From positions 100,338,266-100,402,265 of the forward strand of contig NC_134102.1 in the NCBI RefSeq assembly GCF_000715075.1: a DNA stretch of 64,000 bases. The letters run 5' to 3'. Each line of letters opens with the position of its first letter. The stretch's first letter is position 1. Shown piece by piece: positions 18,423 to 63,734 of the stretch. Source of the stretch: Nicotiana tabacum (lineage: Eukaryota > Streptophyta > Magnoliopsida > Solanales > Solanaceae). The position numbers were made by a program, and so were the translations under genes. Below the pieces are notes generated by a model, which was not told the DNA's origin, did not search any database, and saw only the letters and a program-made list of their open reading frames with translations.

Positions 18423-18452
18423 CAAGTACATACTCGTCACCTCGCGTACATG
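18423..18452 (-). promoter_or_regulatory. Constant-loop hairpin (family A)
   Basis: On the minus strand CATGTAC, loop GCGAGGTGACGAGTAT, then GTACTTG: a 7-bp stem with one mismatch around the same AGGTGACGAG core seen in the other families. A GGTAAGTG motif lies about 80 nt upstream near 18530. Confidence 0.55.
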
Positions 18453-31077: not shown

Positions 31078-31842
31078 GTGTGTTTCGGGGCTATATTTTT
31101 GTGGTTTTATAAACCCAACCACATTCTTATAAAACACTATTGGGAGTCATTTTGAAAGGTTTCATTTGATATTTTAGAGAGAGGTGAGAGCATCCTAGAG
31201 AGAGAAAGTGAAGACCAGGCCATTTGTCCATCAATTCTTGTTCAAGGTTTGAAGATTTCACAAGGATCTTGCTAGGGCTTCAAAGAGGTAAGAATTTCTT
31301 TCCCCAATTCTTCAATTTCGAGTTTAGAGAAAAAGATGGGGATTAAGAGTATGATTCTTGGGTATACGAGTATTAATTATACATACACGTACCAATAAGG
31401 TTTGTGGAGAGATTGTTGAGTTCAAATAGGTAAAGATTGGGTTAAAAATGGTAGAAATCTTCAAAAACTTTAATTGAAGATTTGACGGTCGAGTTGATGT
31501 CGGATTTGGTAAAATTTGTATGGTTGGACTCGTGGTTGAATAGGCGTTCATATTTTGTAACTTTTGTCGGGTTCGAGACATAGGCCCCACAGGCGATTTT
31601 GAGTGCAATTTCGGATATTTGTTGGAAAATTTGTATTTTCATATGGAATTAATTTTTTATAATTCGTATTGACTGAATCGAATTAATTACTACTAGATAC
31701 GAGGATTTAGGAGACCAATTCGCAAGGTAAAGGCATAGCGGAGTAAGGAATTACACGGTTTGAGGTAAGTAACATTTCTAAATTTGGTTCTAAGGGTATG
31801 AGTCCCCAAATCTGGTATTATATAAATTGTTTGGAGGTGACA

Positions 31843-31866
31843 CACACGATAGGTGATGAGCGTGTG
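31843..31866 (+). promoter_or_regulatory. Constant-loop hairpin (family G)
   Basis: Stem CACACG/CGTGTG (6 bp, perfect) with loop ATAGGTGATGAG. The stem shares no sequence with those of families B or F yet is fully paired. The loop keeps the AGGTGA-GAG core with one C-to-T change. Confidence 0.65.
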
Positions 31867-33252
31867 GACTTGCACCATAGAAATTATGACTTGAATAAAT
31901 CATGTGAAGTTGTAAAATTAAAGAATCATGTTATTATCTGAACATTTTCCACATGTTAGAGAAATTGAGCCGAGGCTCTTATTAAAGATCATGTTTAGGC
32001 TACGTGCCAATATTTTAGGACACCATGGGACCGTGTTGCTGTTGAATTAATTATTTCAAAAATATACTTTTCATACTTAGTCATATTCGTCTATTATGAG
32101 GATATTTATGGGATCAAGCTACGCGCCGCAGCAGGCCATATTGGCTTTATATATATGATTACTATATGGAATGGGGATGCCCGCCTGCAGCGGGCCTTAT
32201 AGGCTTTAGTATTATATGGATTAGGGCTGCCCGCCTGCAGCATGCCTTATAGGCTTTATTATTATACGGATCGGGACTGCCCGCCTGCAGTAGGCCATAT
32301 CGGCTTTATATCATGCTTGGGCTGAAGGAGCCCCTCCGGAGTCTGTACACACCCCTAGTGAGCATAGATGATTATATATTCGGGATGGATTTCCCAGGGC
32401 ATGGACTTGCCTTACTTGTTTATATTGTGATGAATTTCTCTGGGCATGGACTTGCCTTATTTATATTGTGATGAATTTTCTCTGGACATGGATCTTGTTC
32501 ATATCATTTACATGTAGGGGTAAATTACCCCAGGGCTGGATTAGCCTCATACGGTACTGAGGGACTGACTGTCAGTCGATGTGAATATACATACAGGATG
32601 GAATATCCCTGGGCTGGATTGGCCATAAACAGTACCGAGTGACCGAATCAATTGTGACCAGTAGTACATGAGGTCTTTCCACTGAGATGTCATATTCCTC
32701 AAAGTATGAAGTATTGATCTATTTTTGCATGTACTGAGTTTAACTGTTGAACTTGAAAGCATGCCTATATTTTTATACCATTATTTATGTACTGGATTGT
32801 ACCTGCGGAGCGCATCACTACTTTCAGCCCAGAGGTTAGTCTTGTTACTTATTGACTTGGTTGTACTCATACTACGCTCTGCACCTCGTGTGCAGATCTA
32901 TGTACTTCCGGATACGACAATTGCTAGATTTGAGGATTTATCTGTTAGAGACTACCAAGGTAGCTGCTTGGCGTCCGCAGACCTTGACTCTCTTTCCTTT
33001 CAGTTATTGTACTGTTCTATGTTTTCAGACAGTGTTCTTATCCGTCAGACTTTGTTATTATTTAGATGCTCATGTACTCAGTGACACCGAATTTTGGGAG
33101 TGTTTTGTATATGAAATTGTGAAGTTTTCTATGGAATTCAAATATTATATTTTCAAACTTAAGAGATTATTGTGATTTATTAAGGTTATCGGCTTGCCTA
33201 GTATTAAGATAGGCGCCATCACGACGGGTTAGGATTTTGGGTCGTGACAAGT

Positions 33253-40356: not shown

Positions 40357-43300
40357 TGTGATGACCCAAAATGTCATCTTTAAATTTAATTATTAATTAT
40401 ATGTTTTAAGACCTCGAAAAGTACTATTTATTATTTCTCGACTTGCGTGCATAATCCGTAAAAATTTTATGGAAAGTTTTTATATGAAAAATGGATTTAA
40501 AATGTGGACTAGAGCTTTAAAACTCAATTGAGTTGACTTTGGTCAATATTTTAAGCAAACGGACTCGGATCAGTATTTTGATAGTTCTGGTAGGTCCGTA
40601 TCGTGATTTGGGACTTGGGCGTATGCCCGGAATTAAATTCTGAGGTCCCTAGCCCGAGATATGAAATTTTGAAGAAAAATTAAAATGTTTAAGTTCGAAT
40701 AATGACCGAATGTCTAATTATGTGAAAATGATCCCAGAATAGAATTTTGATGATTCCAACAGCTCCGTATGGTGATTTTGGACTTAGGAGCGTGTTCGAA
40801 ATTTTATTTGGAAGTCCGTAGTTAAATTAGGCTTGAAATGGCTAAAAACAAGAATTTAAGTTTGGAAGTTTGACCGATGAGTTGACTTTTTGATACCGGA
40901 GTCGGAATCCAGTTCCAAATTTTTTTATAGCTCCGTTATGTCATTTATGACTTGTGTGAAAAATTTAAGGTCAATCGGAGTTGATTTGATAGGTTCTGAC
41001 ATCGAATGTAGAAGTTGAAAACTCTTAGTTTCATTAAGCTTGAATTGGGGTATGATTCATGGTTTTAGCATTGTTTGATGTGATTTAGAGGTTTGACTAA
41101 GTTCGTATGATGTTTTAGGACTTGTTAATATATTTGGTTGCGGTCCCGAGGGCCTCGGGTGAGTTTCGGATGGTTAACAGATCAAAAATTGGACTTAAAA
41201 GTTGCTGCACTGTTTCCTTTTCTGTTGGATATTCTGTGTTGATATCGAGCCCAGGGTTGACGAGGCTCAGGCTCGAGCTTGAGATCGAAGCTACGATCGA
41301 AGGTCCAGCTCGAGGACATGATCGAAGGTAAGGCTCGAGGTCTAGGATTGAGACCCATGCTCGATGCCCTGATCGAAGGCCCATGCTCGAAGCCCTGATC
41401 GAAGGCCCATGCTCGATGCCCTGATCGAAGGCCCAACCTCGATGTCCTGATCGAAGGCCCAACCTCGATGCCCTAATCGAAGGCCTAACCTCGATGCCCT
41501 GATCGAGGCTATGAGCGTGGTCCAGGCTCGAGCCTGTGATCGAAGCCGCGATCGAGGCCCAGTTCGAGGACCAGTTCCGATGGCTGCTGGGCAGTTTTAT
41601 AAAAAGAGGGCATTCGTTCCATTCGCCATTTTTAACAAATTGGAGCTTGAGCAGAGGCGATATTTGATAGATTTTCAAGGAAAAGACATTGGGATAAGTG
41701 ATTCTAACTTGGAATTGGTCTATTAACATAAATATATCATTGTTTTCACAATTTAATTAGTGTTTTGAGATTGAAATTTGGAAAAGTTTAGAAATCTCAT
41801 AGAAATGAAATTTTGAGATTTCGGTATCGATACGGAGTCGGATTTGAGTGAAACTGGTATGGTTGGACTCGTAATTGAATGGGTTGTCAGATTTCATAAC
41901 TTTTGCCGAATTTCGAGTTGTGGGCCCTGCGAACGAATTTTTAATTAATTTCGGGATCTTTTCTTTAAAATGTAGTATTTTCTTATAGAATTGATTCCTA
42001 TAATATTTAGTGATTGTATCGAATTATTTTGACTAGATTCAAGCCAGACGGAGTTGGATAATCGTGGAAAAGGCCTTATAGTAGATTAAATTGGAGCAAG
42101 ACAAGGTAAGTCTCTTGTCTAATATTGTGAAGGAGAAATTACCTCATAGGTGACTAAAATAAAATAATTGTTGCTAATTGTAGGGGGAAACGTACGCACG
42201 AGGTGACGAGAGTCCGTGCGTAGCTACTATTAATGCTAAAGTCCGGGTAGTTTAGGACTCAAAGCATGCCTTACTTGTGTAAATTGTATTCTTTGATTTA
42301 TTTATATTAATTGATATCTATATGAATATATTGTGAATTGTTAGATAAAGATATTAAATGACGGAAATCTCATAGGCTTGATTGTCTGTTTAAATCAATT
42401 AATTATTAAAATAAATTGTTCTCCTCCTGAATTTACCTTATAATAAATATACTCTTCTTCCGGAGGCACATAAGAAAATGTCCTCCTTTCTTGTGGAGCG
42501 GGACGAACGCCTCGGCAGGATAGATGCATCTATGGATCGCGCCGCACATCCCTCGGCAGTGTACACGACACTCTGGATCGGGACGTACGTCCTCGGCAGA
42601 AATCGTGCTTAATAATAATAATTACACGATATTTTAATAATTTATTTCAGCTTGAGAAGCTAATTAATAAATTGGAAAATCCTTGGAATTTAATGAATTA
42701 TTATTCTTGCTTGTTTATGGAATTAATTGTTACTCCTGTAAATGAGATTTAATTGATAAATTGGAATTTATCTGAATTGAAGGAATTTAATTAATATATT
42801 GAGAATTGTTACATTTGAAGGAATTTGATTATTTCTGCTGATTAAACAAATTATTGTAAATTCTGTAAATCATGTTGATTTAATTATTCTAGTTTTATTT
42901 CAGTTATTGTTATTGACCCATAGCGAGTGTCAAAGTCGGCCATCTCGTCTCTATCACTTCGAGATTAGGCTTGATACTTACTGGGTACACGTTGTTTACG
43001 TACTCATACTATACTTGCTGCACTTTTTATGCAGGATCTGAGATAGGTACTAGTGGAGGACCTATCATCACATACCCACGTCATCCCGAGGCATAGTAGT
43101 GAGCTGCCTTTCTGAGCCGTTCTGCAGCTACCAGTGTCTCTTCTTATATTTATATTCTGTCTATTTCATTTCAGATAGTATTTGGAGTTTTGTATAATCT
43201 ACTAGATGCTCATGCACTTGTGACACCGGGTCTTGGCACACACATTGGTAGAAATTGGTATTTTATTATTTTCTTGGAATAAAGTTTAACCAATGTACAT

Positions 43301-43369
43301 TTGAATTATTAGTTGGCTTGCCTAGCTGTAGTGTTGGGCGCCATCTATAGGTGAAATTGGGTCGTGACA
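40357..43369 (+). mobile_element. Alpha chromovirus LTR 1
   Basis: A 3.01-kb LTR starting TGTGATGACCC and ending GTCGTGACA. Its promoter slot carries about six 26-bp TCGA-rich units (41358-41509), then TATAAAA (41598-41604), a GATAAGTG donor-like site near 41693, AAGGTAAGT near 42105, the constant-loop hairpin (42193-42222), slot-2 words ending CCTCGGCAG (42455-42600), and CTGCA/TGCAG hairpin (43018-43034). A 6-bp deletion near 43346 removes the terminal hairpin arm. Confidence 0.93.
41358..41509 (+). repeat. 26-bp TCGA-rich array, LTR 1
   Basis: Six head-to-tail copies of a 26-bp unit (CTCGATGCCCTGATCGAAGG plus six bases), preceded by related but irregular TCGA words from 41240. LTR 2 has seven copies, one cut short; LTR 3 has four. 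Minus-strand open frames over it repeat a nine-residue peptide and are not genes. Confidence 0.9.
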
Positions 43370-43372
43370 ACA

Positions 43373-43384
43373 TGGTATCAGAGC
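43373..43384 (+). promoter_or_regulatory. Primer-binding site, alpha unit 1
   Basis: TGGTATCAGAGC, initiator-Met-tRNA complement, 4 nt (ACA then T of the site) after the LTR end at 43369. The same site recurs at 51548-51559 and 59637-59648 after LTRs 2 and 3. Confidence 0.9.
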
Positions 43385-43560
43385 ACTAGGTTCACGTAGG
43401 TCTCACAAGTTATGAGCAGCCCTAATAGAGTCTTGCGGATCGGTACGGAGACGTCTATACTTATCTTCGAGAGGCTATATGGTGTTAGGAAATTACCTTT
43501 CTTCACATTCCATCGTGCAATTAATGTAGCACTAAAACTCCTTCTCTTATTCTCTCACAG

Positions 43561-46500
43561 ATGGTGAGAACACGCTCTAGTGAGATTCCAGACCAGTGAA
43601 GAGCTACTCCCCCAGTTGCTAGAGGCCGAGTCAGAGGCCGAGGGAGGGCTCCAGCCCGTGATAGAGGGCGTGGACATCCCAGGAATATTCCAGTTATGCC
43701 TCCAGTGGATCCAGCAGAGAATCCCATTATTGAGGAGCAGGGTGAGGTGCCTATGGCAGAGCCAGCTCTGGTGGACTTCACATCTGCACCGGGATTTCAG
43801 GATGTCATGGGTCGTATGCTGCGATTCATGGACAATATGACTCAGGCCGGTTTATTTCCGGCAGACCCAGCCACATCTCAGGCGGGCGGGGAAGCACAGA
43901 CCCCTACCACGCAGGCTCATGGACAAGCAGTTGCTGTATATCAGACCCAGGGTGCACTACCCGTGGGTGGAGTCCAGCCAGTGGCAGTAGCTACACCTGA
44001 GCCCAGGCCAGCTGTAGCCGCCGATCCTCAGAAACTATTGGACAGATGGACTAGACTACATCCTTCTATCTTCGGGGGTGAGCAACATGAGGATCCACAG
44101 GATTTCATTGATCGTTGCAAGGATAGACTGTACAACATGAGGATATTGGAATTCCATGGGGTTGATTTCACAACTATTTTGCTAGAGGGTAAAGCCTGTA
44201 GATGGTGGAAGTCTTATACTCTTGGCAGACCAGCAGATTCTCCTCCCATGACTTAGGATAGGTTCACCCGTATCTTCTTGGACAGGTATATTCCACCCTC
44301 CCAGAGGGAAGAGTTGCGGTTTCAGTTTGAGCAGCTCCAGCAGGGTCAGATGTCAGTAACTGATTATGAGGCGAGGTTTTTTGAATTATCTCGCCATGTA
44401 CTAATGATACTCCCTACTGAGGCGGAGAGAGTGCCAAGGTTTGTAGCCAGTTTACATACTGGTATTTAGGCCACTATGGCTCGAGAGGTTGAGATGGGTA
44501 CTTCTTATGAGCGAGTTGTGGAGATAGCCCAGAGGATTGAGGGTGTACGTCAGCGGAGCCGAGAGCAGATTATGAGAGATAAATGGTTCGTGTACTCTGG
44601 AGAGTTCAGAGGTGCTCCGTCCGGGGGCAGAGGTCAGTTCGTGAGGGGGCAGTCCAACAGACCCCCATATCCAGCACCACCACCTCCTCGAGGTCCTCCA
44701 GTAAGACCTTATTTCAGTGCTATACTAGAGAGTTCTTATCGCCCACCAGCTATTCAAGGTTCTTTCCGTGGGTATTCAGGTCCCCAGGGCCAGACACTTC
44801 CCATCGCACCGAAGAGTTGTTACGAGTGCGGGGATCCCAGTCACATGCGGAGGTTTTGCCCCAGGCTTCGAGGTAGACAAGTACAACAGGGTCAGCAGCC
44901 TATGCTTACCGGACCAGTTGCTCTACCAGTAATCCGACCACCAAGATGTGGAGGACAGGTGGGTAGGGGCCGTCCTAGAGGTGGAGGTCAGCCAGGCGGA
45001 GGCCAGACAGTTGGCGCTCCAGCTCGGTTCTATGCTTTTCCGGCTAGACCAGATGCAGAGGCCTCAGATGCCGTGATTACAGGTATTATTTCTATTTGTG
45101 GCAAAGATGCCTCAGTATTATTTGATCCAGGATCTACGTATTCATATGTATCATCTCTATTTACCCTATTCCTGGGTGTTCCTCGTGAGTCCTTGAGTAC
45201 TCCTGTTTATGTGTCCACTCTTTGGGCGATTTTGTTATTGTGAACCGGATCTACCGGTCCTGCATTATTACATTCTGTGGTTATGAAACTAGAGCAGATC
45301 TCCTATTGCTTGAGATGACCGATTTTGAAATTATTCTGGGTATGGACTGGTTATCTCCATATCATGCTATTCTAGATTGTCATGCCAAGACTGTTACCTT
45401 GGCTATTCCAGCATTGCCTAAGCTGGAGTGGAAGGGTTCGCCTGTTAGTTCATTTAATCGAGTTATTTCTTTTATAAAGGCTCAACACATGGTTGAGAAG
45501 GGTTGTTTGGCTTATCTAGCCTATGTTCGGGATACTACTGCAGAGACTCCGGCTATTGATTCAGTGCCTGTAGTTTGGGAGTTCCCCGATGTATTTCCGT
45601 CAGATCTTCCAGGTATGCCACCTGATCGTGATATTGATTTCTGTATTGACTTGGCTTCAGATACCCAGCCTATATCTATCCCACCGTATCGCATGGCTCC
45701 GAAAGAATTGAAAGAATTGAAAGAACAGCTTGAAGAGTTACTAGCCAAAGGGTTTGTCAGACCGAGTGTATCGCCTTGAGGTGCACCAGTATTATTTGTG
45801 AAAAAGAAGGATGGAACAATGCGGATGTGTATTGATTATCGCCAATTGAACAAAGTCACTATTAAGAACAAGTACCCGTTACCGCGTATTGATGATCTAT
45901 TTGACCAGTTGCAGGGTGCTAGGGTATTCTCTAAGATCGACTTGAGGTCGGGGTACCATCAGTTCAAGATTCGGGATTCGGATGTTCCGAAGACTGCTTT
46001 TCGGACTAGATATGGTCATTATGAGTTTCTGGTGATGTCCTTCAGTTTAACTAATGCCCCGACAGCGTTTATGGATCTGATGAACAGGGTATTCATGCCA
46101 TATATTGATTCGTTTGTCATTGTCTTCATTGATGACATATTAATCTATTCGCGCAGTAAGGAGGAACATGAGCATCATATGAGAGTAGTGCTTCAGACAT
46201 TACGGGAACAAAAGTTATATGCTAAGTTCTCTAAATGTGAGTTCTGGCTTGAGTCTGTAGCATTTTTGGGACATATTGTATCGGGCGAAAGTATTAAAGT
46301 TGATCCCAAAAAGATTGAGGCAGTTCAGAATTGGCATCGTCCCACTTCGGCGACGTAGATTAGGATTTTTCTGGGTTTGGCAGGTTATTATCGTCGGTTC
46401 GTGGAAGGTTTTTCATCTATTGCAGCACCTTTGACCAAATTAACCCAGAAGGGTGTTCCATTCTGATGGTCCGATGATTGTGAGGTGAGCTTTCAGAAGC

Positions 46501-48503
46501 TCAAGACATCATTGTCTACAGCACCAGTGATAGTGTTACCTTCCGGTTCGGGGATGTATACAGTGTATTGTGACGCTTCGCGCGTTGGCTTGGGTTGTGT
46601 ATTGATGCAGGAAGGGCAAGTTATTGCATATGATTCACGTCAGCTAAAGTCCCACGAAAAAAATTATCCGGTACATGATTTGGAGTTAGCTGCGATTGTT
46701 CACGCTCTTAAGATTTGGAGGCATTATCTTTATGGGGTGTCTTGTGAAGTTTACACTGATCATCGCAGTTTGCAGCATTTGTTCAAGCAGAGGGACCTAA
46801 ATTTGAGATAGCGCAGATGGCTGGAGTTACTAAAAGATTATGATATTACTATCCTGTATCATCCGGGCAAAGCAAATGTGGTTGCAGATGCCTTGAGCAG
46901 AAAGGCGGAGAGTATGGGTAGTTTGGCTTTCGTTTCAGCAGAAGAAAGGCTATTAGCCTCAGATATTCAGTCCTTGGCTAACAGACTTGTGAGGCTGGAT
47001 ATTTTAGAGCCCAACCGAGTTCTTGCATGTGTTGTGGCCCAATCTTCACTATTTGAGTAGATCAAGGCTCGCCAGTATGATGACCCACACCTGGTGGTTC
47101 TTCGTGAAACGGAACTACGAGGTGGTGCCAAGGAAGTCACTATTGGTGCAGATGGTGTTCTACGACTCCACGAGGAAAAAGATCCTGGAGGAGGCACACA
47201 GGTCTCGATATTCTATTCATCCAGGTGCTACGAAGATGTATCGTGACTTGAGGCAGCATTATTGGTGGCGACGAATGAAAAAGGACATAGTTGAGTATGT
47301 AGCTCGGTGTCTAAATTGCCAGCAAGCTAAATATGAGCACCAGAGGCCCGGTGGCCTACTCCAACAGATGACCATACCAGAGTGGAAATGGGAACGAATT
47401 ACTATGGATTTTGTAGTTGGGTTGCCGCGGACCTTGAGGAAGTTTGATGCAGTTTGGGTGATTATTGACAGGTTGACCAAGTCGGCACATTTTATTCCTA
47501 TTGTGACTACGTATACTTCAGAGAAGTTGGCCCAGATTTATATTCAGGAGATAGTTCGGTTGCACTGTGTGCCAATTTCCATCATATCAGATAGAGGCCC
47601 TCAGTTTACTTCACATTTCTGGAGAGCAGTACAGAGTGAGTTGGGGACCCGTGTAGAGCTCAGCACAACCTTTCATCCGCAGACCGACGAGCAGTCAGAG
47701 CGGACAATTCAGATTTTGGAGGATATGCTCAGGGCATGTGTGATCGACTTTGGAGGTCAGTGAGATCGTTTCCTGCCTTTGGCCGAGTTTGCTTATGATA
47801 ACAGTTACCAATCCAGCATCGAGATGGCTCCATTTGAGGCTTTATATGGTCGACGATGTCGTTCACCTATCGGATGGTTTGAGCCAGGTGAGGCTAAGTT
47901 ATATGGTACTGATTTGGTAGGGATGCCTTGGAAAAGGTAAAGTTGATTCAGGAACGACTTCGTACAGTACAGTCCAGACAAAAGAGTTACGCGGATCAGA
48001 AAGTGCGTGATATATCATTTATGGTAGGTGAAAAAGTTCTCTTAAAGGTTTCGCCGATGAAGGGAATTATGAGATTCGGGAAGAAGGGCAAGTTGAGCCC
48101 AAGGTTTATAGGCCCATTTGAGGTGTTGAAACGAGTTGGGGAGGTTGCTTATGAGCTTGCATTTCCTCCCAGCCTATCGGGAGTTCATTCGGTTTTCCAC
48201 GTATCTATGCTCCGGAAGTATCATGCCGACCTATCACATGTGTTAGACTTCAGCACAGTTCAACTAGATAATAGCTGGGGTTATGAAGAGGAGCCAATTG
48301 CCATTGTTGATAAACAGGTTCGCCAGTTAAGGTCCAAGAGGAAATCTACAGTAAAAGTCCAGTGGAGGGGCCAACCAGTCGAGGAAGAGACTTGGGAGGC
48401 CGAGGAAAACATGCGGAGCAGATATCCAGACTTATTCAGCACTTCAGGTATAATTCTAAACTCGTTCGAGGACGAACGTTTGTTTAAGAGGTGGAGAATG
48501 TGA
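43561..48503 (+). pseudogene. Gag-pol pseudogene, alpha unit 1
   Basis: One fused gag-pol frame from ATG at 43561. Domains: Gag with zinc knuckle CYECGDPSHMRRFC near 44820 (intact); protease with DPGSTYSYV near 45130; reverse transcriptase with FIDD near 46125; RNase H from 46540; integrase zinc domain and core from 47210 (TMDFV, SDRGPQF); GPF; chromodomain to 48503 ([14 protein letters not shown]). Breaks are stops at 43597, 44254, 44467, 45777, 46356, 46463, 46808, 47058 and 47761, a one-base loss near 45225, a net 32-base loss near 47178, and a one-base loss near 47918. Chromodomains of this type are thought to direct integration to heterochromatin. Not functional. Confidence 0.92.
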
Positions 48504-51500
48504 TGACCCAAAATGTCATCTTTAAATTTAATTATTAATTATGTGTTCTAAGACCTCAAAAAGTACTATTTATCATTCCTCGACTTGCGTGCGCAATCCG
48601 TTAAAATTTTATGGAAAGTTTTTATGTGAAAAATAGATTTAAAATGTGGATTAGAGCTTTAAAACTCAATTGAGTTGACTTTGGTCAATATTTTGAGCAA
48701 ACGGACTCGGATCAGTGTTTTGATAATTTCGGTAGGTCCGTATCGTGATTTGGGACTTGGGCGTATGCCCGGAATCAAATTCCGAGGTCCCTAGCCCGAG
48801 ATATGGAATTTTGAAGAAAAATTAAAATGTTTAAGTTCGAATAGTGACCGGATGTCTAATTATGTGAAAACGACCCCGGAATAGAATTTTGATGATTCCA
48901 ACAGCTCCGTATGGTGATTTTGGACTTAGGAGCGTGTTCGGAATTTTATTTGGAAGTCCGTAGTTAAATTAGGCTTGAAATGGCTAAAAACAAGAATTTA
49001 AGTTTGGAAGTTTGACCGATGATTTGACTTTTTGATACCGGAGTCGGAATCCAGTTCCGAAAATTTTCATAGCTCCGTTATCTCATTTATGACTTGTGTG
49101 TAAAATTTGAGGTCAATCGGAGTTGATTTGATAGGTGCCGACATCGAATGTAGAAGTTGAAAACTCTTAGTTTCATTAAGCTTGAATTGGGGGTATGATT
49201 CATGGTTTTAGCGTTGTTTAATGTGATTTAGAGGTTTGACTAAGTTCGTATGATATTTTAGGACTTGTTGGTATATTTGGTTGAGGTCTCGAGGGCCTCG
49301 GGTGAGTTTCGGATGGTTAACGGATCAAAAATTGGACTTAAAAGCTGTTGCAGTGTTTCCTCTTCTGTTGGATATTCTGTGTTTATATCGAGCCCAGGTA
49401 TCGAGCCCAGGGTTGACGAGGCTTAGGCTCGAGCTTGAGATCGAAGCCACGATCGAAGGTCCAGCTCGAGGACATGATCGAAGGTAAGGCTCGAGGGCTA
49501 GGATTGAGGCCCATGCTCGATGTCCTAATCGAAGGCCCATGCTCGATGCCCTGATCGAAGGCCCAACCTCGATGTCCTGATCGAAGGCCCAACCTCGATG
49601 CCCTGGTCCATGCTCGATGCCCTGATCGAAGGCCCAACCTCGATGCCCTGATCGAAGGCCCAACCTCGATGCCCTGATCGAGGCTATGACCGAGGTCCAG
49701 GCTCGAGCCTGTGATCGAAGCCGCGATCGAGGCCCAGTTCGAGGACCAGTTCCGAAGGCTGCTCGGCAGTTTTATAAAAAGAGGGCATTCGTCCCATTCG
49801 CCATTTTTAACAAATTGGAGCTTGAGCAGAGGCGATTTTTGATAGATTTTCAAGGAAAAGACATTGGGATAAGTGATTCTAACTTGGATTTGGTATATTA
49901 ACATAAACATATCATTGTTTTCACAATTTAATTAGTGTTTTGAGATTGAAATTGGGAAAAGTTTAGAAATCTCATAGAAACGAAATTATGAGATTTCGGT
50001 ATCGATACAGAGTCGGATTCGAGTGAAACTGGTATGGTTGGACTCGTAATTGAATGGGTTGTCAGATTTCATAACTTTCGTCGAATTCCGAGATGTGGGC
50101 CCCGCGGGCGAATTTTTAATTAATTTCGGGATCTTTTCTTAAAAATGTAGTATTTTCTTATAGAATTGATTCCTATAATATTTAGTGATTGTATCGAATT
50201 ATTTTGGCTATATTCAAGCCAGATGGAGTTGGATAATCGGGGAAAAGGCCTTATAGTGGATTAAATTGGAGCAAAACAAGGTAAGTCTCTTGTCTAATCT
50301 TGTGAGGGGGAAATTACCTCATAGGTGATTAAAATTAAATAATTATTGCTAATTGTGGAGGGCTACGTATGCACGAGGTGACGAGAGTCCGTGCGTAGCT
50401 ACTATTAATGCTAAAGTCCAGGTAGTTTAGGATTCAAAGCATGCCTTACTTGTGTAAATTATATTCTTTGATTTATTTATATTAATTGATATCTATATGA
50501 ATATATTATAAATTGTTAGATAAAGATATTAAAGGATGGAAATCTCATAGGCTTGATTGTCTGTTTAAATCAATTAATTGTTAAAAGAAATTGTTCTCCT
50601 CCCGAATTTACCTTATAATAAATATACTCTCCTTCCGGAGGCACATAAGAAAATGTCCTCCTTTCTTGTGGAGCGGGCCGAACGCCTCGGCAGGATAGAT
50701 GCATCTATGGATCGCGCCGCACGTCCCTCGGCAGTGTACACGACACTCTGGATCGGGCCGTACGTCCTCGGCAGAAATCGTGCTTAATAATAATAATTAC
50801 ACGATACTTTAATAAATTATTTCAGCTTGAGAAGCTAATTAATAAATTGAAAAATCCTTGGAATTTAATGAATTATTATTCTTGCTTGTTTATGGAATTA
50901 ATTGTTACTCCTGTAAATGAGATTTAATTGATAAATTGGAATTTATCTGAATTGAAGGAATTTAATTAATATATTGAGAATTGTTACATTTGAAGGAATT
51001 TGATTATTTCTGCTGATTAAACAAATTATTGTAAATTCTGTAAATCATGCTGATTTAAATATTCTAATTTTATTTCAGTTATTGTTATTGACCCATAGTG
51101 AGTGTCAAAGTCGGTCATCTCGTCTCTACCACTTCGAGATTAGGCTTGATACTTACTGGGTACACGTTGTTTACGTACTCATACTACACTTGCTGCACTT
51201 TTTGTGCAGGATCTGAGACAGGTACTAGTGGAGGACCTATCATCACATACCCACGTCATCCCGAGGCATAGTGGTGAGCTGCCTTTCTGAGCCGCTCTGC
51301 AGCTACCAGTGTCTCTTCTTATATTTATATTCTGTCTATTTCATTTCAGACAGTGTTTGGAGTTTTGTATAATCTACTAGATGCTCATGCACTTGTGACA
51401 CCGGGTCTTGGCACACACATTGGTAGAAATTGGTATTTTATTATTTTCTTGGAATAAAGTTTAACCATTGTACGTTTGAATTATTAGTTGGCTTGCCTAG

Positions 51501-51544
51501 CTGTAGTGTTGGGCGCCATCTATAGGTGAAATTGGGTCGTGACA
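48499..51544 (+). mobile_element. Alpha chromovirus LTR 2 (shared)
   Basis: A 3.05-kb LTR between the two gag-pol units, preceded by purine tract AAGAGGTGGAGAA (48486-48498) and followed by a primer site, so it serves as 3' LTR of unit 1 and 5' LTR of unit 2. Array 49514-49683 has seven 26-bp units. TATAAAA is at 49773-49779, constant-loop hairpin at 50368-50397, acceptor-like hairpin at 51193-51209. It shares with LTR 1 the 6-bp loss near its end. Confidence 0.93.
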
Positions 51545-51735
51545 ACATGGTATCAGAGCACTAGGTTCACGTAGGTCTCACAAGTTATGAGCAGCCCTAA
51601 TAGAGTCTTGCGGATCGGTACGGAGACGTCTATACTTATCTTCGAGAGGCTATATGGTGTTAGGAAATTACCTTTCTTCACATTCCATCGTGCAATTAAT
51701 GTAGCACTAAAACTCCTTCTCTTATTCTCTCACAG

Positions 51736-54700
51736 ATGGTGAGAACACGCTCTAATGAGATTCTAGACCAGGGAAGAGCTACTCCCCCAGTTGCTAGAGG
51801 CCGAGTCAGAGGCCAAGGGAGGGCTCCAGCCCGTGGTAGAGGGCGAGGACGTCCCAGGACTATTCCAGTTATGCCGCCAGTGGATCCAGCAGAGAATCCC
51901 ATTATTGAGAAGCAGGGTGAGGTGCCTGTGGCAGAGCCATCTCCGGTGGACTTCACATCTGCACCAGGATTTCAGGATTTCATGGGTCGTATGCTGCGAT
52001 TCATGGACAATATGACTCAGGCCGGTTTATTTCCGGCAGACCCAGCCACATCTCAGGCGGGTGGGGGAGCACAGACCCCTACCACGCAGGCTCATGGACA
52101 GGCATCTGTTGTATATCAGACCCAGGGTGCACTACCCATGGGTGGAGTCCAGCCAGTGGCAGCAGCTACACCTGAGCCCAGGCCAGTTGTAGCCGCCGAT
52201 CCTCAGAAACTATTGGAAAGATGGACTAGACTACATCTTTCTATCTTCGGGGGTGAGCGACATGAGGATCCACAGGATTTAATTGATCGTTGCAAGGATA
52301 GACTGTACAACATGAGGATATTGGAATCCCATGGGATTGATTTCGCTACTTTTCAGCTAGAGGGTAGAGCCCGTAGATAGTGGCAGTCTTATGCTCTTGG
52401 CAGACCAGCAGATTCTCCTCCCATGACTTGGGACAGGTTCACCCGTATCTTCTTGGACATGTACATTCCACCCTCCCAGAGGGAAGAGTTACGGTTTCAG
52501 TTTGAGCAGCTCCAGCAGGGTCAGATGTCAGTGACTGATTATGAGGCGAGGTTTTTTGAATTATCTCGCCATGCCCTAATGATACTCCCTACTGAGGCGG
52601 AGAGAGTGCCAAGGTTTGTAGCCGGTTTACATACTGGTATTCAGGCCACTATGGCTCGAGAGGTTGAGATGGGTACTTCTTATGAGCGAGTTGTGGAGAT
52701 AGCCCAGAGGATTGAGGGTGTACGTCAGTGGAGCCGAGAGCAGATTATGAGAGACAAGCGGTTCAGGTACTCTGGAGAGTTCAGAGGTGCTCCGTCCAGG
52801 GGCAGAGGTCAGTTCGTGAGGGGGCAGTCCAACAGACCCCCATATCCAGCACCACCACCTCCTTGAGGTCCTCCAGTACGACCTTATTTCAGTGCTATAC
52901 CAGAGAGTTCTTATCGCCCACTAGCTATTCAGGGTTCTTTCCGTGGGTATTCAGGTCCCCAGGGCCAGACACTTAGTCAGCAGCCCATCGCACCGAAGAG
53001 TTGTTACGAGTGCGGGGATCCCAGTCATATGTGGAGGTTTTTCCCCAGGCTTCGAGGTAGACTAGTACAGCAGGGTCAACAGCCTATGCTTACCGGACCA
53101 GTTGCTCCACCAGTAGTCCGACCACCAAGAGGTGGAGGACAGGTGGATAGGGGCCGTCCTAGAGGTGGAGGTCAGCCACGTGGAGGCCAGACAGATGGTG
53201 CTCCAGCTCGGTTCTATGCTTTTCCGGCTAGACCAGATGCAGAGGCCTCAGATGCCGTGATTATAGGTATTATTTCTGTTTGTGGAAAAGATGCCTCAGT
53301 ATTATTTGATCCAGGTTCTACGTATTCATATGTATCATCTCTATTTGCCCCATTCCTGGGTGTTCCTCGTGAGTCCTTGAGTACTCCTGTTTATGTGTCC
53401 ACTCTTGTGGGCGATTCTGTTATTGTGAACCGGATCTACCGGTCCTGTATTATTACATTCTGTGGTTATGAAACTAGAGCAGATCTCCTATTGCTTGAGA
53501 TGACCGATTTTGAAATTATTCTGGGTATGGACTAGTTATCTCCATATCATGCTATTCTAGATTGTCATGCCAAGGCTGTTACCTTGGCTATTCCAGCATT
53601 GCCTAAGCTGGAGTGGAAGGGTTCGCCTGTTAGTTCATTTAATTGAGTTATTTCTTTTATAAAGGCTCAACACATGGTTGAGAAGCATTGTTTGGCTTAT
53701 CTAGCCTATGTTCGGGATACTACTACAGAGACTCTTGCTATTGATTCAATGCCTGTAGTTCGGGAGTTCCCCGATGTATTTCCGTCAGATCTTCCAGGTA
53801 TGCCACCTGATCGTGATATTGATTTCTGTATTGACTTGGCTTCAGATACCCAGCCTATATCTATCCCACCGTATCGCATGGCTCCGAAAGAATTGAAAGA
53901 ATTGAAAGAACAGCTTAAAGAGTTACTAGCCAAAGGGTTTGTCATACCGAGTGTATCGCCTTGAGGTGCACCAGTATTATTTGTGAAAAAGAAGGATGGA
54001 ACAATGTGGATGTGTATCGATTATCGCCAATTGAACAAAGTCACTATTAAGAACAAGTACCCGTTACCGCGTATTGATGATCTATTTGACCAGTTGCAGG
54101 GTGCTAGGGTATTCTCTAAGATCGACTTGAGGTCGGGGTACCATCAGTTGAAGATTCGGGATTCGAATGTTCCGAAGACTGCTTTTCAGACTAGATATGG
54201 TCATTATGAGTTTCTGGTGATGTCCTTCGGTTTAACTAATGCCCCGGCAGCGTTTATGGATCTGATGAACAAGGTATTCATGCCATATATTGATTCGTTT
54301 GTCATTGTCTTCATTGATGACATATTAATCTATTCGCGCAGTAAGGAGGAACATGAGCATCATATGAGAGTAGTGCTTGAGTCTGTAGCATTTTTGGGAC
54401 ATATTATATCGAGCGAAGGTATTAAAGTTGATCCCAAAAAGATTGAGGCAGTTCAGAATTGGCATCGTCCCACTTCGGCGACGTAGATTAGGATTTTTCT
54501 GGGTTTGGCAGGTTATTATCGTCGGTTCGTGGAAGGTTTTTCATCTATTGCAGCACCTTTGACCAAATTAACCCAGAAGGGTGTTCCATTCCGATGGTCC
54601 GATGATTGTGAGGTGAGCTTTCAGAAGCTCAAGACATCATTGTCTACAGCACCAGTGATAGTGTTACCTTCCGGTTCGGGGATGTATACAGTGTATTGTG

Positions 54701-56658
54701 ACGCTTCGCGCGTTGGCTTGGGTTGTGTATTGATGCAGGAAGGGCAAGTTATTGCATATGATTCACGTCAGCTAAAGTCCCACGAAAAGAATTATCCGGT
54801 ACATGATTTGGAGTTAGCTGCGATTGTTCACGCTCTTAAGATTTGGAGGCATTATCTTTATGGGGTGTCTTGTGAAGTTTACACTGATCATCGCAGTTTG
54901 CAGCATTTGTTCAAGCAGAGGGACCTAAATTTGAGACAGCGCAGATGGCTGGAGTTACTAAAAGATTATGATATTACTATCCTGTATCATCCGGGCAAAG
55001 CAAATGTGGTTGCAGATGCCTTGAGCAGAAAGGCGGAGAGTATGGGTAGTTTGGCTTTCATTTCAGTAGAGGAAAGGCCATTAGCCTCAGATATTCAGTC
55101 CTTGGCTAACAGACTTGTGAGGCTGGATACTTCAGAGCCCAGCCGAGTTATTGCATGTGTTGTGGCCCAATCTTCACTATTTGAGCAGATCAAAGCTCGC
55201 CAGTATGATGACCCACACCTGATGGTTCTTCGTGAAACGGTACTATGAGGTGGTGCCAAGGAAGTCACTATTGGTGTAGATGGTGTTCTACGACTCCAGG
55301 ATCGTCTGTGTGTTATTAATGTGGATGAACTGAGGAAAAAGATCCTGGAGGAGGCACACAGTTCTCGATATTCTATTCATCCAGGTGCTACGAAGATGTA
55401 TCGTGACTTGAGGCAGCATTATTGGTGGCGATGAATGAAAAAGGACATAGTTGAGTATGTAGCTCGGTGTCTAAATTGCTAGCAAGTTAAATATGAGCAC
55501 CAGAGGCCAGGTGGCCTACTCCAGCAGATGACCACGCCAGAGTGGAAATAGGAACGAATTACTATGGATTTTGTAGTTGGGTTGCCGCGGACCTTGAAGA
55601 AGTTTGATGCAGTTTGGGTGATTGTTGACAGGTTGACCAAGTCGGCACATTTTATTCCTGTTGTGACTACGTATACTTCAGAGAGGTTGGCCCAGATTTA
55701 TATTCAGGAGATAGTTCGGTTGCACGGTGTGCCAATTTCCATCATATCAGATAGAGGCCCTCAGTTTACTTCATATTTCTGGAGAGCAGTACAGAGTGAG
55801 TTGGGGACCCGTGTAGAGCTCAACACAGCCTTTCATCCGCAGACCGACGGGAAGTCAGAGCGGACAATTTAGATTTTGGAGGATATGCTCAGGGCATGTG
55901 TGATCGACTTTGGAGGTCAGTGGGATCGTTTCCTGCCTTTGGCCGAGTTTGCTTATAATAACAGTTACCAATCCAGCATCGAGATGGCTCCATTTGAGGC
56001 TTTATATGGTCTGCGATGTCGTTCACCTATTGGATGGTTTGAGCCAGGTGAGGCTAAGTTATATGGTACTGATTTGGTAAGGGATGCCTTGGAAAAGGTA
56101 AAGTTGATTCAGGAACGATTTCGTACAGCACAGTCCAGACAAAAGAGTTACGCGGATCAGAAAGCGCGTGATATATCATTTATGGTAGGTGAAAAAGTTC
56201 TCTTGAAGGTTTCGCCGATGAAGGGAATTATGAGATTCGGGAAGAAGGGCAAGTTGATCCCAAGGTTTATAGGCCCATTTGAGGTGTTGAAACGAGCTGG
56301 GGAGGTTGCTTATGAGCTTGCATTGCCTCCCAGCCTATCGGGAGTTCATTCGATTTTCAATGTATCTATGCTCCGGAAGTATCATGCTGACCTATCACAT
56401 GTGTTAGACTTCAGCACAGTTCAACTAGATAATAGCTGGGGTTATGAAGAGGAGCCAATTGCCATTGTTGATAAACAGGTTCGCCAGTTAAGGTCCAAGA
56501 GGAAATCTACAGTAAAAGTCCAGTGGAGGGGCCAACCAGTCGAGGAAGAGACTTGGGAGGCCGAGGAAAACATGCGGAGCAGATATCCAGACTTATTCAG
56601 CACTTCAGGTATAATTCTAAACCCGTACGAATGTTTGTTTAAGAGGTGGAGAATGTGA
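51736..56658 (+). pseudogene. Gag-pol pseudogene, alpha unit 2, one frame
   Basis: The whole gag-pol stays in a single frame from ATG 51736 to TGA 56656-56658 (1,641 codons), with only nonsense codons as breaks: near 52378, 52864, 53533, 53644, 53962, 54484, 55246, 55432, 55480, 55549 and 55870. Gag zinc knuckle near 53010 has lost its last Cys (RFF for RFC). Protease DPGSTYSYV near 53310; reverse transcriptase FIDD near 54310, with a 57-base in-frame deletion near 54378; RNase H from 54690; integrase from 55340; GPF near 56275; chromodomain near 56515-56600. All unshared stops look like C-to-T or G-to-A changes. Confidence 0.92.
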
Positions 56659-59633
56659 TGACCCAAAATATCATCTTTAAATTTAATTATTAATTATGTG
56701 TTCTAAGACCTCGAAAAGTACTTTTTAGCATTCCTCGACTTGCGTGCGCAATCCGTAAAAATTTTATGGAAAGTTTTTATGTGAAAAATAGATTTAAAAT
56801 GTGGATTAGAGCTTTAAAACTCAATTGAGTTGACTTTGGTCAACATTTTGAGCAAACGGACTCGGATCAGTGTTTTGATAGTTCTGGTAGGTCCGTATCG
56901 TGATTTGGGACTTGGGCGTATGCCCGGAATCAAATTCCGAGGTCCCTAGCCCGAGATATGGAATTTTGAAGAAAAATTAAAATGTTTAAGTTCGAATAGT
57001 GACCGGATGTCTAATTATGTGAAAACGACCTCGGAATAGAATTTTGATGATTCCAACAGCTCCGTATGGTGATTTTGGACTTAGGAACATGTTTGGAATT
57101 TTATTTGGAAGTCAGTAGTTAAATTAGGCTTGAAATGGCTAAAAACAAGAATTTAAGTTTGGAAGTTTGACCTATGAGTTGATTTTTTGATACCGGAGTC
57201 GGAATCCAGTTCCGAAAATTTTTATAGCTCCGTTATGTCATTTATGACTTGTGTGTAAAATTTGAGGTGAATCGGAGTTGATTTGATAGGTTCCGACATC
57301 GAATGTAGAAGTTGAAAACTCTTAGTTTTATTAAGCTTGAATTGGGGTATGATTCATGGTTTTAGCATTGTTTGATGTGATTTAGAGGTTTGACTAAGTT
57401 CGTATGATGTTTTAGGACTTGTTGATATATTTGGTTGAGGTCCCCAGGGCCTCGGGTGAGTTTCGGATGGTTAACGGATCAAAAATTGGACTTAAAAGCT
57501 GCTGCAGTGTTTCCTCTTCTGTTGGATATTCTGTGTTGATATCGAGCCCAGGTATCGAGTCCAGGGTTGACGAGGCTCAGGCTCGAGCTTGAGATCGAAG
57601 CCACGATCGAAGGTCCAGCTCGAGGACATGATCGAAGGTAAGGCTCGAGGGCTAGGATCGAGACCCATGCTCGATGCCCTGATCGAAGGCCCATGCTCGA
57701 TGCCCTGATCGAAGGCCCAACCTCGATGTCCTGATCGAAGGCCCAACCTCGATGCCCTGATCGAGGCTATGATTGAGGTCCAGGCTCGAGCCTGTGATCG
57801 AAGCCGCGATCAAGGCCCAGTTCGAGGACCAGTTCCGAAGGCTGCTGGGCAGTTTTATAAAAAGAGGGCAATCGTCCCATTCGCCATTTTTAACAAATCG
57901 GAGCTTGATCAGAGGCGATTTTTGATAGATTTTCAAGGAAAAGACATTGGGGTAAGTGATTCTAACTTGGATTTGGTCTATAAACATAAATATATCATTG
58001 TTTTCACAATTTAATTAGTGTTTTGAGATTGAAATTTGGAAAAGTTTAGAAATCTCATAGAAACGAAATTTTGAGATTTCGGTATCGATACAGAGTCGGA
58101 ATTGAGTGAAACTGGTATGGTTGGACTCGTAATTGAATGGGTTGTCAGATTTCATAACTTTCGCCGAATTCCGAGATGTGGGCCCCGCGGGCGAATTTTT
58201 AATTAATTTCGGGATCTTTTCTTAAAAATATAGTATTTTCTTATAGAATTGATTCCTATAATATTTAGTGATTGTATCGAATTATTTTGGCTAGATTCGA
58301 GCCAGACGGAGTTGGATAATCATGGAAAAGGCCTTATAGTGGATTAAATTGGAGCAAAACAAGGTAAGTCTCTTGTCTAATCTTGTGAGGGAGAAATTAC
58401 CTCATAGGTGATTAAAATTAAATAATTGTTGCTAATTGTGGAGAGCTACGTACGCACGAGGTGACGAGAGTCCGAGCGTAGCTATTATTAATTGTAAAGT
58501 CCGGATAGTTTAGGACTCAAAGCATGCCTTACTTGTGTAAATTATATTCTTTGATTTATTTATATTAATTGATATCTATATGAATATATTGTGAATTGTT
58601 AGATAAAGATATTAAAGTATGGAAATCTCATAGGCTTGATTGTCTGTTTAAATCAATTAATTGTTAAAAGAAATTGTTCTCCTCCCGAATTTACCTTATA
58701 ATAAATATACTCTCCTTCCGGAGGCACATAAGAAAATGTCCTCCTTTCTTGTGGAGCGGGCCGAACGCCTCGGCAGGATAGATGCATCTATGGATCGCGC
58801 TGCACGTCCCTCGGCAGTGTACACGACACTCTGGATCGGGACGTACGTCCTCGGCAGAAATCGTGCTTAATAATAATAATTACACGATATTTTAATAATT
58901 TATTTCAGCTTGAGAAGCTAATTAATAAATTAGAAAATCCTTGAAATTTAATGAATTATTATTCTTGCTTGTTTAAGGAATTAATTGTTACTCCTGTAAA
59001 TGAGATTTAATTGATAAATTGGAATTTATCTGAATTGAAGGAATTTAATTAATATATTGAGAATTGTTACATTTGAAGGAATTTGATTATTTCTGCTGAT
59101 TAAACAAATTATTGTAAATTCTGTAAATCATGTTGGTTTAAATATTCTAGTTTTATTTCAGTTATTGTTATTGGCCCATAGCGAGTGGCAAAGTCGGCCA
59201 TCTCGTCTCTATCACTTCGAGATTAGGCTTGATACTTACTGGGTACACGTTGTTTACGTACTCATACTATACTTGCTGCACTTTTTGTGCAGGATCTGAG
59301 ATAGGTACTAGTGGAGGACCTATCATCACATACCCACGTCATCCCGAGGCATAGTAGTGAGCTGCCTTTCTGATCCGCTCTGCAGCTACCAATGTCTCTT
59401 CTTATATTTATATTCTGTCTATTTCATTTCAGACAGTATTTGGAGTTTTGTATAATCTACTAGATGCTCATGCACTTGTGACACCGGGTCTTGGCACACA
59501 CATTGGTAGAAATTGGTATTTTATTATTTTCTTGGAATAAAGTTTAACCAATGTACATTTGAATTATTAGTTGGCTTGCCTAGCTGTAGTGTTGGGCGCC
59601 ATCACGACCTATAGGTGAAATTGGGTCGTGACA
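56654..59633 (+). mobile_element. Alpha chromovirus LTR 3
   Basis: A 2.98-kb LTR with four 26-bp units (57669-57767), TATAAAA at 57856-57862, constant-loop hairpin at 58451-58480 with one mismatch, acceptor-like hairpin near 59276-59292, and an intact terminal hairpin (CACGACC 59603-59609 with GGTCGTG 59624-59630). A primer site follows at 59637-59648, so a third unit began here. Confidence 0.93.
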
Positions 59634-62232: not shown

Positions 62233-62831
62233 AGCTGGGTAAAAGAGGGGAAAAATGGGACTTAGCTTATTTTACACTATTTTTCAACCCTAAACATTCT
62301 AGAGACGATTTTTCAAGAATTTCTTCTTCCCAAAATCATTGATAAGCAACTTTAATCCATTTTCTTTCAATTCCCCATTACTTTTCATATGTTTTTAATA
62401 TCAAATCTAGGATTTTCATGGTAGAAATTAAAGATTTGGGTAAAATTTGGAAATTTTGTGAAATTGAGATTTAGACCTCAAATTGAGGTCGAATTTCGAA
62501 ATAAATCAAATAATGAGGCTCGGTGTAAATGGGTAATTGAATTTTGGTCCAGATCTCGGATTTTGACCAAGCGAGCCTGGGGTTGACTTTTGTTGACTTT
62601 TTCAAATTCATCAAAGATTGAACCTTTTTCATTCGTGGGTAGTGTTTAAAGCTTATTTTGAATTGTTTGAACTATATTTGGCTAGATTTGGTTGGTTTGG
62701 AGGCTTATTCGAAAGGAAAATTTGTGGTTGATTGTTGAGTTGGTTGTGCAAAGAGGTAAGTGTTGGGTCTAACCTTGACTTGAGGGAATTAGAACTTGTT
62801 AGACTATTTGTTATGTGAATTATGTGGGGAA

Positions 62832-62869
62832 ACGGCGTATATGCGAGGTGACGAGTGTATATGCGCCGT
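62832..62869 (+). promoter_or_regulatory. Constant-loop hairpin (family F)
   Basis: ACGGCGTATAT pairs with ATATGCGCCGT: 11 bp with one G-U, loop GCGAGGTGACGAGTGT. This is the longest stem of the set and has no sequence in common with the stems of B, alpha or G. Confidence 0.7.
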
Positions 62870-63717
62870 CATAGGATTAAGCATGAGGGATTGGGCTATT
62901 TACTTCTATGTATTCATTTATTCTATGTTATATCTTGTTACATGCTTTAATTGCTACATATCCTTACTTGTTATCTATGCTTTACTTGTTAATTGTTAAT
63001 TAATTGTTGCTTGTTTTGATTTATTCACTCTCACTCTATATTTTCTCACCCGCTACATGTTCCTACTTTCCTTAATTGTATATTCACATTGTCACACATT
63101 TTTACTTGCTTTTATTGTCCTTATGTTACTTGATGCACTCTATTATGTTATTTCGAATACGTGAGCCATTTAGCTATTTTTGTATTGATGAATCGTCAAG
63201 GTTTTGGATTATGAGGTGTTGAATATTCCTTGTTTGTATTTGTAGTTCTTTAATGTTTTGCACGTTTCATTCTCTTTTGATATTAGGGGGATCAGGTTGC
63301 ACGCCGCAATATTATTGAAAGGAATTGATATTGGGGATCGAGTTGCACGCTGCAACGGAACATGAAATGATATGATATTGATATTAGAAATGAGATATAC
63401 GTTGGATAGTGTGTTGAAACTTGGGATCGTGTTGCACGCCATAACGTATTTGATATGTTGTAGTTGTTTTTGGTTGTAGAGTTTATTCTTGATATTGTGA
63501 TACGAGATTTGAGATTATGTTATTCTGGGGCTCTCTGGTAGTTGACCTTCGGGTCCGTTTATATGAGTTTATTGCTTTATTTCTATTCATGTTTTCTGTC
63601 ATTATTATTTCGTACAGGTTTATTGTGAGAGACTTGCCATAGCCTCATCACTACTTCGTAGAGGTTAGGCTCGGCACTTACAGAGTACATGGGGTCGGTT
63701 GTACTCATGCTACACTT

Positions 63718-63734
63718 CTGCACTTCTTGTGCAG
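63718..63734 (+). promoter_or_regulatory. CTGCAC...GTGCAG hairpin (family F)
   Basis: 6-bp perfect stem, loop TTCTT, preceded by GTACTCATGCTACACTT as in the other families. Equivalent to 3951-3970, 20954-20971, 32879-32895 and 51193-51209. Confidence 0.6.

Follow-up and report, generated by a model that had tools for sequence, protein, structure and literature searches.

The loop of a putative hairpin in a predicted LTR intron of tobacco chromoviruses is complementary to a block near the 3′ end of the same intron

How plant LTR retrotransposons separate the RNA used for translation from the RNA used for replication is an open question. In retroviruses, the packaging signals are found 3′ of the major splice donor. 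Excerpts on the retroviral leader describe the stem-loops SL1–SL4 (PMC3902901). Among plant elements, passages on the Copia element BARE describe distinct pools of RNA for translation and replication and a spliced form, with an intron of 104 nt in gag (PMC3735527). The Ty3/gypsy element Ogre, of the Tat lineage, is partially spliced with its intron between ORFs, according to passages that make no mention of an intron in the Tekay lineage (PMC6317226). Excerpts on Ty3 report a dimerisation palindrome in its RNA (PMC11381356), and for plant Metaviridae, LTR models could not be built owing to length variation, as an excerpted source puts it (PMC3601003). In the zipper introns of yeast (RPS17B/RP51B), splicing is promoted by pairing between segments close to the 5′ splice site and to the branchpoint, as set out in passages of PMC2536676.

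We studied a stretch of 64,000 nt of Nicotiana tabacum DNA (NC_134102.1, 100,338,266–100,402,265, forward strand), hereafter the window, in which several LTR families carry a hairpin, HP1, and a complementary block downstream of it, HP2. The arrangement of HP1 and HP2 matches that of the yeast zipper stems, in that a single intron has mutually complementary segments close to its two ends; the alpha, A and F copies in the window are exceptions. The differences are that one partner here is the loop of a covarying hairpin, that the intron belongs to a retrotransposon LTR, and that the loop and HP2 show no clear compensatory change. Like the retroviral leader stem-loops, HP1 appears structured, 3′ of a splice donor and absent from spliced RNA; unlike them, it lies within the LTR and upstream of the primer site, and the intron acceptor is also inside the LTR. 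BARE is likewise a plant LTR element with a spliced form, but the present chromoviruses have two predicted introns, both in the LTR leader. Ogre resembles them as a partially spliced plant Ty3/gypsy element, yet its intron lies between ORFs rather than in the leader. HP1 and the Ty3 palindrome are both structured elements that act in cis at the 5′ end of the RNA of a Ty3/gypsy element. Dimerisation had been among the roles suggested by an earlier reading of the window, the sequence-only reading, and finds no backing here, as the loop AGGUGAYGAG contains no palindrome by inspection. Neither HP1 nor LTR-leader introns in chromoviruses were described among the literature matches listed, with most subscription journals outside the scope of the search, and a search with the letters of the core gave unrelated titles among the matches listed.

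A pattern search of the window found the core AGGTGAYGAG exactly eight times, each time within an LTR, and all eight cores had the flanking inverted repeats that the sequence-only reading had located there. In the F LTR, HP1 occupies 62832–62869 (+), with a 14-position stem and the loop core AGGTGACGAG at 62846–62855. The other plus-strand copies lie in the B 5′ LTR (LTR 844–4303; HP1 2727–2764, core start 2741), the B 3′ LTR (10844–10881, core start 10858), the G LTR (31837–31874, core start 31851, loop AGGTGATGAG) and the three alpha LTRs, namely LTR 1 (LTR 40357–43369; HP1 42187–42224, core start 42201), LTR 2 (50362–50399, core start 50376) and LTR 3 (58445–58482, core start 58459). The A copy is on the minus strand (18419–18456, core start 18433). 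Across the assembly that the window comes from (4.0 Gb, 700 contigs), AGGTGAYGAG occurred 97,841 times vs. 11,265 for the reversed pattern, and GGTAAGT followed after 72–102 nt by AGGTGAYGAG occurred 59,272 times, the reversed control only 14 times. HP1 is carried by tens of thousands of related element copies in the tobacco genome. No Rfam family, hammerhead included, matched anywhere in the window at the gathering threshold, and a hammerhead-like reading of the loop GUGACGAG (the hammerhead motif being CUGANGA) was dropped for that reason. Pattern matches in IMG/VR (at least 120 stretches) were taken as chance for a gapped 17-base pattern. In two genomic loci, L241 and L243, an LTR-start-like TGTGATGACCC begins 8 nt past the core, which may reflect an insertion or a truncated family.

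The alpha element is a chromovirus (Ty3/gypsy), with a chromodomain downstream of the integrase: its four internal ORFs carry RVP_2, H2C2 with rve, RNase H, and SH3_Tf2-1 with Chromo. From the look of the LTR, the polypurine tract and gag, these elements may belong to the Tekay/Del lineage. The primer site TGGTATCAGAG follows the B 5′, alpha and A LTRs.

Motif spacing around the core points to a leader with two introns. Among 50 loci with sufficient sequence, TATA[AT]A peaked 580–603 nt upstream of the core (14 loci; next highest bin, 9); the TATA box of alpha LTR 1 (TATAAAAA, 41598–41605, +) lies 603 nt upstream. GGTAAG showed two peaks upstream of the core, at 70–117 nt (31 + 8 loci in two bins) and 478–525 nt (16 + 5 loci), with 0–1 loci in other bins. 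All eight window cores lie 86–95 nt past the exon end of AG/GTAAGT (slash, exon–intron border), and the corresponding distance was 79–95 nt in 43 of 51 loci; this site was sought within 115 nt, a limit partly offset because the GGTAAG bins show no other nearby peak. Past HP2 come a pyrimidine-rich stretch and then GCAG. We predict three exons, from the start to D1, from A1 to D2 (~70 nt), and from A2 onward, with the primer site after it; transcription start and splicing are predicted from motifs and retrocopies, the latter showing the structure in one family group, with homology extending it elsewhere.

In the F LTR (+), the predicted 70-nt exon 2, assigned by homology to the retrocopy-defined exon, follows CTAG/ATTTGG and spans 62686–62755. 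The predicted 5′ splice site of intron 2 (AG/GTAAGT, 62754–62761; exon 2 ends at 62755) is homologous to a site spliced in retrocopies of another family group, and the predicted 3′ splice site (GTGCAG/ATCC, 63729–63734) places the start of exon 3 at 63735. In the B 5′ LTR (+), a 5′ splice site is predicted for intron 1 at 2235–2243 (GG/GTAAGTG) and for intron 2 at 2648–2655 (exon end 2649), with the 3′ splice site GTGCAG/ATCC at 3965–3970. The G LTR (+) has predicted intron 2 sites at 31763–31770 (5′) and 32890–32895 (3′, GTGCAG/ATCT), and alpha LTR 1 (+) at 42104–42111 (5′; exon end 42105) and 43029–43034 (3′, ATGCAG/GATC). For the A LTR, the predicted 5′ splice site of intron 2 is at 18527–18534 (−). 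The predicted 3′ splice site of the F LTR also sits inside a small palindrome, CTGCAC-N5-GTGCAG (63718–63734), and the variants in other families look paired. Two further candidate features were set aside: ATG counts across exons and intron were not decisive for a ribosome shunt, and a second hairpin, GGGG..CCCC, between the donor and HP1 paired inconsistently by eye. Upstream of the TATA box, 450 bp of the alpha LTR (LTR positions 400–850, window 40757–41207) could be aligned in ~25 of 44 distant loci.

Splicing was assessed by looking across the assembly for LTRs whose donor and acceptor exons were already joined. A short junction pattern gave 5 matches vs. 7 for its reversed control; because this count is not above control, the case for splicing rests on reading the loci themselves, with ~500 nt on each side. 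Four of these matches, L289–L292, are LTRs whose 70-nt exon 2 runs straight into exon 3, with the joint exactly at CGAG/GTAAGT...GCAG/ATCC, and in all four the upstream intron 1 is missing as well as intron 2. L289 and L290 lie 6.68 kb apart on contig 6 and are 88% identical over 924 nt, whereas L291 is on contig 18 and L292 on contig 19. The intron 1 border, GGAG/GTAA...TAG/ATTTGGG, was fixed by alignment only for L289 (against L059) and assigned by likeness in L290–L292. The fifth match, L293, is an internal stretch like one well downstream of the LTR core in L054. A longer junction pattern gave 4 matches vs. 0 in the control. Two of the four were L291 and L292; the other two, of which only the intron 2 junction was read, lie 6.95 kb from each other on contig 22. 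Joint loss of two introns with exact GT-AG borders at three loci points to reverse transcription of spliced RNA and is otherwise hard to explain. The searches covered the short and longer patterns and, of the window types, alpha, for which the two junction matches both fell outside an LTR and were discarded.

The HP1 core and CTCGTCAC, the 8-mer at the heart of HP2, are absent from L289–L292, so that HP1 is present in the unspliced form and missing from the spliced one, as judged from DNA copies. Retrocopies lacking intron 2 make HP1 intronic in that family group, and loss of intron 2 is shown there; in the remaining families the assignment follows from homology of the sites. On this evidence, HP1 almost certainly lies inside a genuine intron, intron 2, near its 5′ splice site, a setting that the sequence-only reading had not noticed.

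To compare stems across families, we assembled leaders from the same assembly. The core sample comprised 92 of the first 100 places listed on contig 1 plus the eight window sites. By hairpin-masked flank similarity, 66 of these 100 formed one group (58 of the 92 and all eight window sites), while the remaining 34 fell into small groups or singletons with poor pairing (mean stem score 7.3 vs. 19.4). Another 40 of 100 listed places with donor and core were added, picked by eye for differing flanks. The final set held 106 leaders in 33 flank clusters, of which 20 were single copies and 21 had only one or two copies. A covariation subset of 50 leaders drew 5 from the window, 40 from the diverse additions and 5 more. 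The donor-only sample consisted of 20 of 100 listed places absent from the core lists and was non-random, with at least 7 from one family.

The HP1 families, alpha included, align without gaps in one symmetric register, position −k opposite +k around the core, over 14 positions. The sequence-only reading had regarded the stems of B, F, G and alpha as unrelated; this does not hold, as the arms share that register and differ between families mainly by transitions. In the 106 leaders, Watson-Crick pairing at k=1–14 reached 0.596 in register vs. at most 0.353 when the arms were slid. In the 50-leader subset, each of the 14 pairs had changed in both arms (mean after shuffling 11.0, with 14 reached in 2 of 500 shuffles), paired cells made up 75.8% vs. 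66.5% after shuffling, and the covariation score was 0.462 vs. 0.306 shuffled (sd 0.016) and at most 0.244 slid. Exchanging 3′ arms between copies lowered the mean stem score from 19.4 to 14.6 (deranged-mean sd 0.46). Many copies have GTAC-like arms in common, however, so that only 12 of 66 individually scored above the 95th percentile of arm-swapped stems.

Relatedness inflates covariation, and high scores are seen for many other column pairs of the leader as well. For this reason, each column was simulated independently on a tree built from the flanks only (106 leaders, 1000 simulations). The summed Watson-Crick fraction was 8.35 vs. 5.67 expected (sd 0.56), with a maximum of 7.37 in the 1000 simulations. 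Pair by pair the signal was weak: only k=6 and k=14 had Watson-Crick fractions with p <0.05 (k=3, 0.050), and none did when G.U was counted as paired. G-tests gave p ≤0.002 at k=5, 6, 7, 9, 12 and 14, but did likewise at k=15, which is unpaired, so the G-test alone was not relied on and weight was placed on the helix-level result. Changes from one Watson-Crick pair to another numbered 21 on internal branches and 7 on terminal ones. Starting from Watson-Crick pairs, pairing was kept vs. broken 37:26 on internal and 53:87 on terminal branches (p 0.006), one further internal double change, to G.U, being left out of the 37:26. Such a contrast would be expected of a stem whose pairing counts during replication of the element but no longer once a copy has inserted.

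Folding of single copies was strong only for the F copy (z −3.63), with z of −2.22 and −1.62 for B, −1.08, −1.98 and −1.40 for alpha, −1.03 for G, and −0.44 for A, which preferred a different fold. RNAalifold on all 206 columns placed its sole helix at HP1, weakly (−0.83 kcal/mol) and with only 4 of 8 pairs (k=5–8) in the HP1 register. Because single-copy folding energies are mostly ordinary, the evidence for HP1 is comparative. Since the core was a search term, constancy of the loop was judged on copies anchored by the donor motif, which alone had 46,930 matches vs. 1 in the control. Among 20 such copies without an exact core, 19 kept the stem in register (17 by script, plus L271 and L272, which the script misplaced, by reading the letters), and L283 had lost the HP1 region. 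Their loops were 1–4 letters off AGGTGACGAG; one family (L269, L270, L273 and L274) has the loop TGGTGACGGT on a long stem, and its relative L275 has TGGTGACGAG. The loop is thus almost constant and the stem free to vary. The sequence-only reading had proposed a constant loop on a covarying stem, selected as a structure, and helix-level covariation, the tree-aware null and the branch contrast all bear this out. We regard HP1 as very probably an RNA hairpin under selection.

Within the loop, GUGACGAG exactly complements CUCGUCAC, a conserved block that generally lies ~90 nt upstream of the intron 2 3′ splice site, and HP2, CTCGTCACTAC, holds the exact complement of GUGACGAG plus one G.U. Within HP2, CTCGTCAC was present in 23 of 51 downstream regions vs. 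1 of 50 upstream regions; downstream, it ranked 12th among all 65,536 8-mers, with relatedness ignored, and third among 8-mers with four or more G/C. The other two 8-mer complements of the loop occurred in 0 and 1 of the downstream regions. Of 9 G-type stretches without a local CGAGG, 6 carry HP2 exactly and 2 with a single letter changed, and in the remaining one it was not found; over all 20 stretches from the same fetch, it was not found in 4.

HP2 was recognised in only 30 of 50–51 loci. The first scan for the 3′ splice site covered only 70–135 nt after HP2, so the narrow spacing it gave is partly built in; the scan was repeated without that limit in the 30 of 51 loci with HP2 and 420 nt after it. 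There, counted from the first base of HP2, TGCAG ended after 80–99 nt in 16 of the 30, after 120–139 nt in 4 and after 160–179 nt in 2, and 14 of 30 lacked TGCAG at 80–99 nt. The distance from core to HP2 ranged from 562 to 1548 nt. Each block therefore keeps to its own splice site, more loosely so at the 3′ end, and the middle of the intron varies.

In the window, complementarity differs from copy to copy. The B 5′ LTR has an HP2 block, CTCGTCACTACT (3880–3891, +), that is the exact complement of the loop's GTGACGAG, and the G LTR has an HP2-like block, CGCATCACTACT (32811–32822, +). The block of the F LTR, CCTCATCACTACT (63643–63655, +), has one C.A mismatch to the loop of that copy, and those of alpha LTR 1 (CTCGTCTCTATC, 42944–42955, +) and the A LTR (CTCGTCTCTACT, 16896–16907, −) are also mismatched. 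The window alpha copies and A share the HP2 variant CTCGTCTC, and F and L264 the variant CTCATCAC, in both cases with the loop unchanged. In the family with loop TGGTGACGGT, HP2 is unchanged, and the first-position A-to-U change in the loop would add a pair. No clear double change in HP1 and HP2 was seen among the stretches compared. A co-change of loop C/T with HP2 G/A looked possible from the G LTR of the window, which has T with A, but four T-loop copies lack the A (L219, L221, L236 and L245, in stretches L252, L253, L258 and L257), and the idea was abandoned. Complementarity between loop and HP2 is therefore clear in these sequences, whereas covariation between them is not, and we lean slightly towards the HP1 loop pairing with HP2.

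Our best reading, which we hold tentatively, is that HP1 pairs the ends of an intron and thereby sets splicing of the leader. HP1 would be a stem-loop in the transcribed leader, within the LTR of elements from a very large Ty3/gypsy lineage that bears a chromodomain. Its core would lie in intron 2, 79–95 nt past the 5′ splice site, and HP2 (CUCGUCACUAC) mostly 80–99 nt before the 3′ splice site. The stem could present the loop AGGUGACGAG to HP2 for 8 Watson-Crick pairs and one G.U, and this pairing would loop out the variable 0.6–1.5 kb middle of the intron and join the splice sites in space. Such a clamp might set the share of leader RNA that is spliced, for translation, or left whole, as genome, the effect on splicing being our extrapolation. 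That splicing is the selected function of HP1 seems to us close to an even question, slightly on the doubtful side. HP1 may in this way help to decide between spliced and whole RNAs. With tens of thousands of copies, two LTR introns, fossils of spliced retrocopies and a covarying hairpin near an intron edge, the lineage makes splicing control, genome selection and silencing testable.

The main competing explanation is that HP1 serves as an identity tag, for packaging or Gag binding, that marks unspliced genomic RNA. Both leader donors lie 5′ of HP1 and spliced copies lack it, and a near-constant loop on a freely varying stem would suit a tag. Spliced retrocopies were found at few loci vs. 46,930 donor-motif copies, a ratio that mixes families and whose rarity could just mean little splicing. 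A tag alone would explain neither the exact complement near the 3′ splice site nor the constant spacing from the 5′ one, and we consider it unlikely, if the most serious of the alternatives. Clamping and packaging can both hold. The fullest account would have two LTR introns and a hairpin loop that clamps the ends of intron 2, splits translated from replicated RNA and doubles as a packaging mark of whole genomes; taken together, this is conceivable but doubtful.

HP1 and HP2 could instead be separate splicing regulators, such as protein-binding enhancers or silencers, without pairing to each other. This would fit the distance that each block keeps to its own splice site, as well as the families in which the loop is kept where HP2 has changed and the one family that shows the reverse. 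However, it would make an 8-nt exact complement between two top-conserved GC-containing blocks a coincidence (naively ~3 x 12/65,536, relatedness ignored), and we judge it rather improbable.

The sequence-only reading had left the structure as either RNA or a cruciform. Selection on a structure stood, and the balance of wobble pairs favours its RNA side: G.U vs. A.C stood at 64:18 in cluster consensus vs. 39:34 in single-copy decay (p 0.002), the decay being counted in copies of the 12 clusters with at least three members. Without k=1 and k=8 the counts were 36:17 vs. 37:33 (p 0.10), so the sense-strand RNA is moderately favoured over a DNA cruciform. A DNA-level palindrome, as a cruciform or a dimeric protein site, would agree with arms that alternate purines and pyrimidines and hold palindromes such as GTAC, and with direct-repeat identity as high as inverted pairing. 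Still, an excess of G.U over A.C, weaker as it is without those two positions, is unexpected for DNA, and the arms vary between families, unlike a protein site, which makes this explanation highly unlikely. The palindromic units of B and F do form direct repeats as well (identity 0.637 at one offset vs. 0.596 for inverted Watson-Crick pairing), but we put these down to palindromic GTAC units and prefer the inverted reading in view of the outer pairs k=11–14 and of the alpha- and G-type stems. A TGA/bZIP site, whose motif is TGACG, was rejected as the sole cause because it leaves the complementary arms unexplained. A functionless stem, in which common ancestry and CpG decay imitate covariation, is the least credible explanation of all, for although relatedness inflates covariation, other leader column pairs also score high and k=15 has a low G-test p while unpaired, pairing specific to the register exceeds both the slid controls and the tree-aware helix-level null, and terminal branches show the opposite keep:break balance.

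Purine/pyrimidine alternation in the arms covered 0.93 and 0.78 of steps in cluster consensus and 0.90 and 0.76 in copies, vs. 0.56 and 0.42 in the flanks of copies; evolution through G.U steps would preserve such alternation, not create it. Elsewhere in the window, the three alpha LTRs (40357–59633) are evenly spaced (offsets 8142 and 8155) in the order LTR-internal-LTR-internal-LTR, which makes a tandem element. The B LTR carries a ~189-bp tandem duplication at 1687–2064, with the copy in its partner LTR at 9808–10185, and tandem repeats with GTGAGCTCTTTATTGTGG at 3094–3357, whose number appears to differ between the two LTRs.
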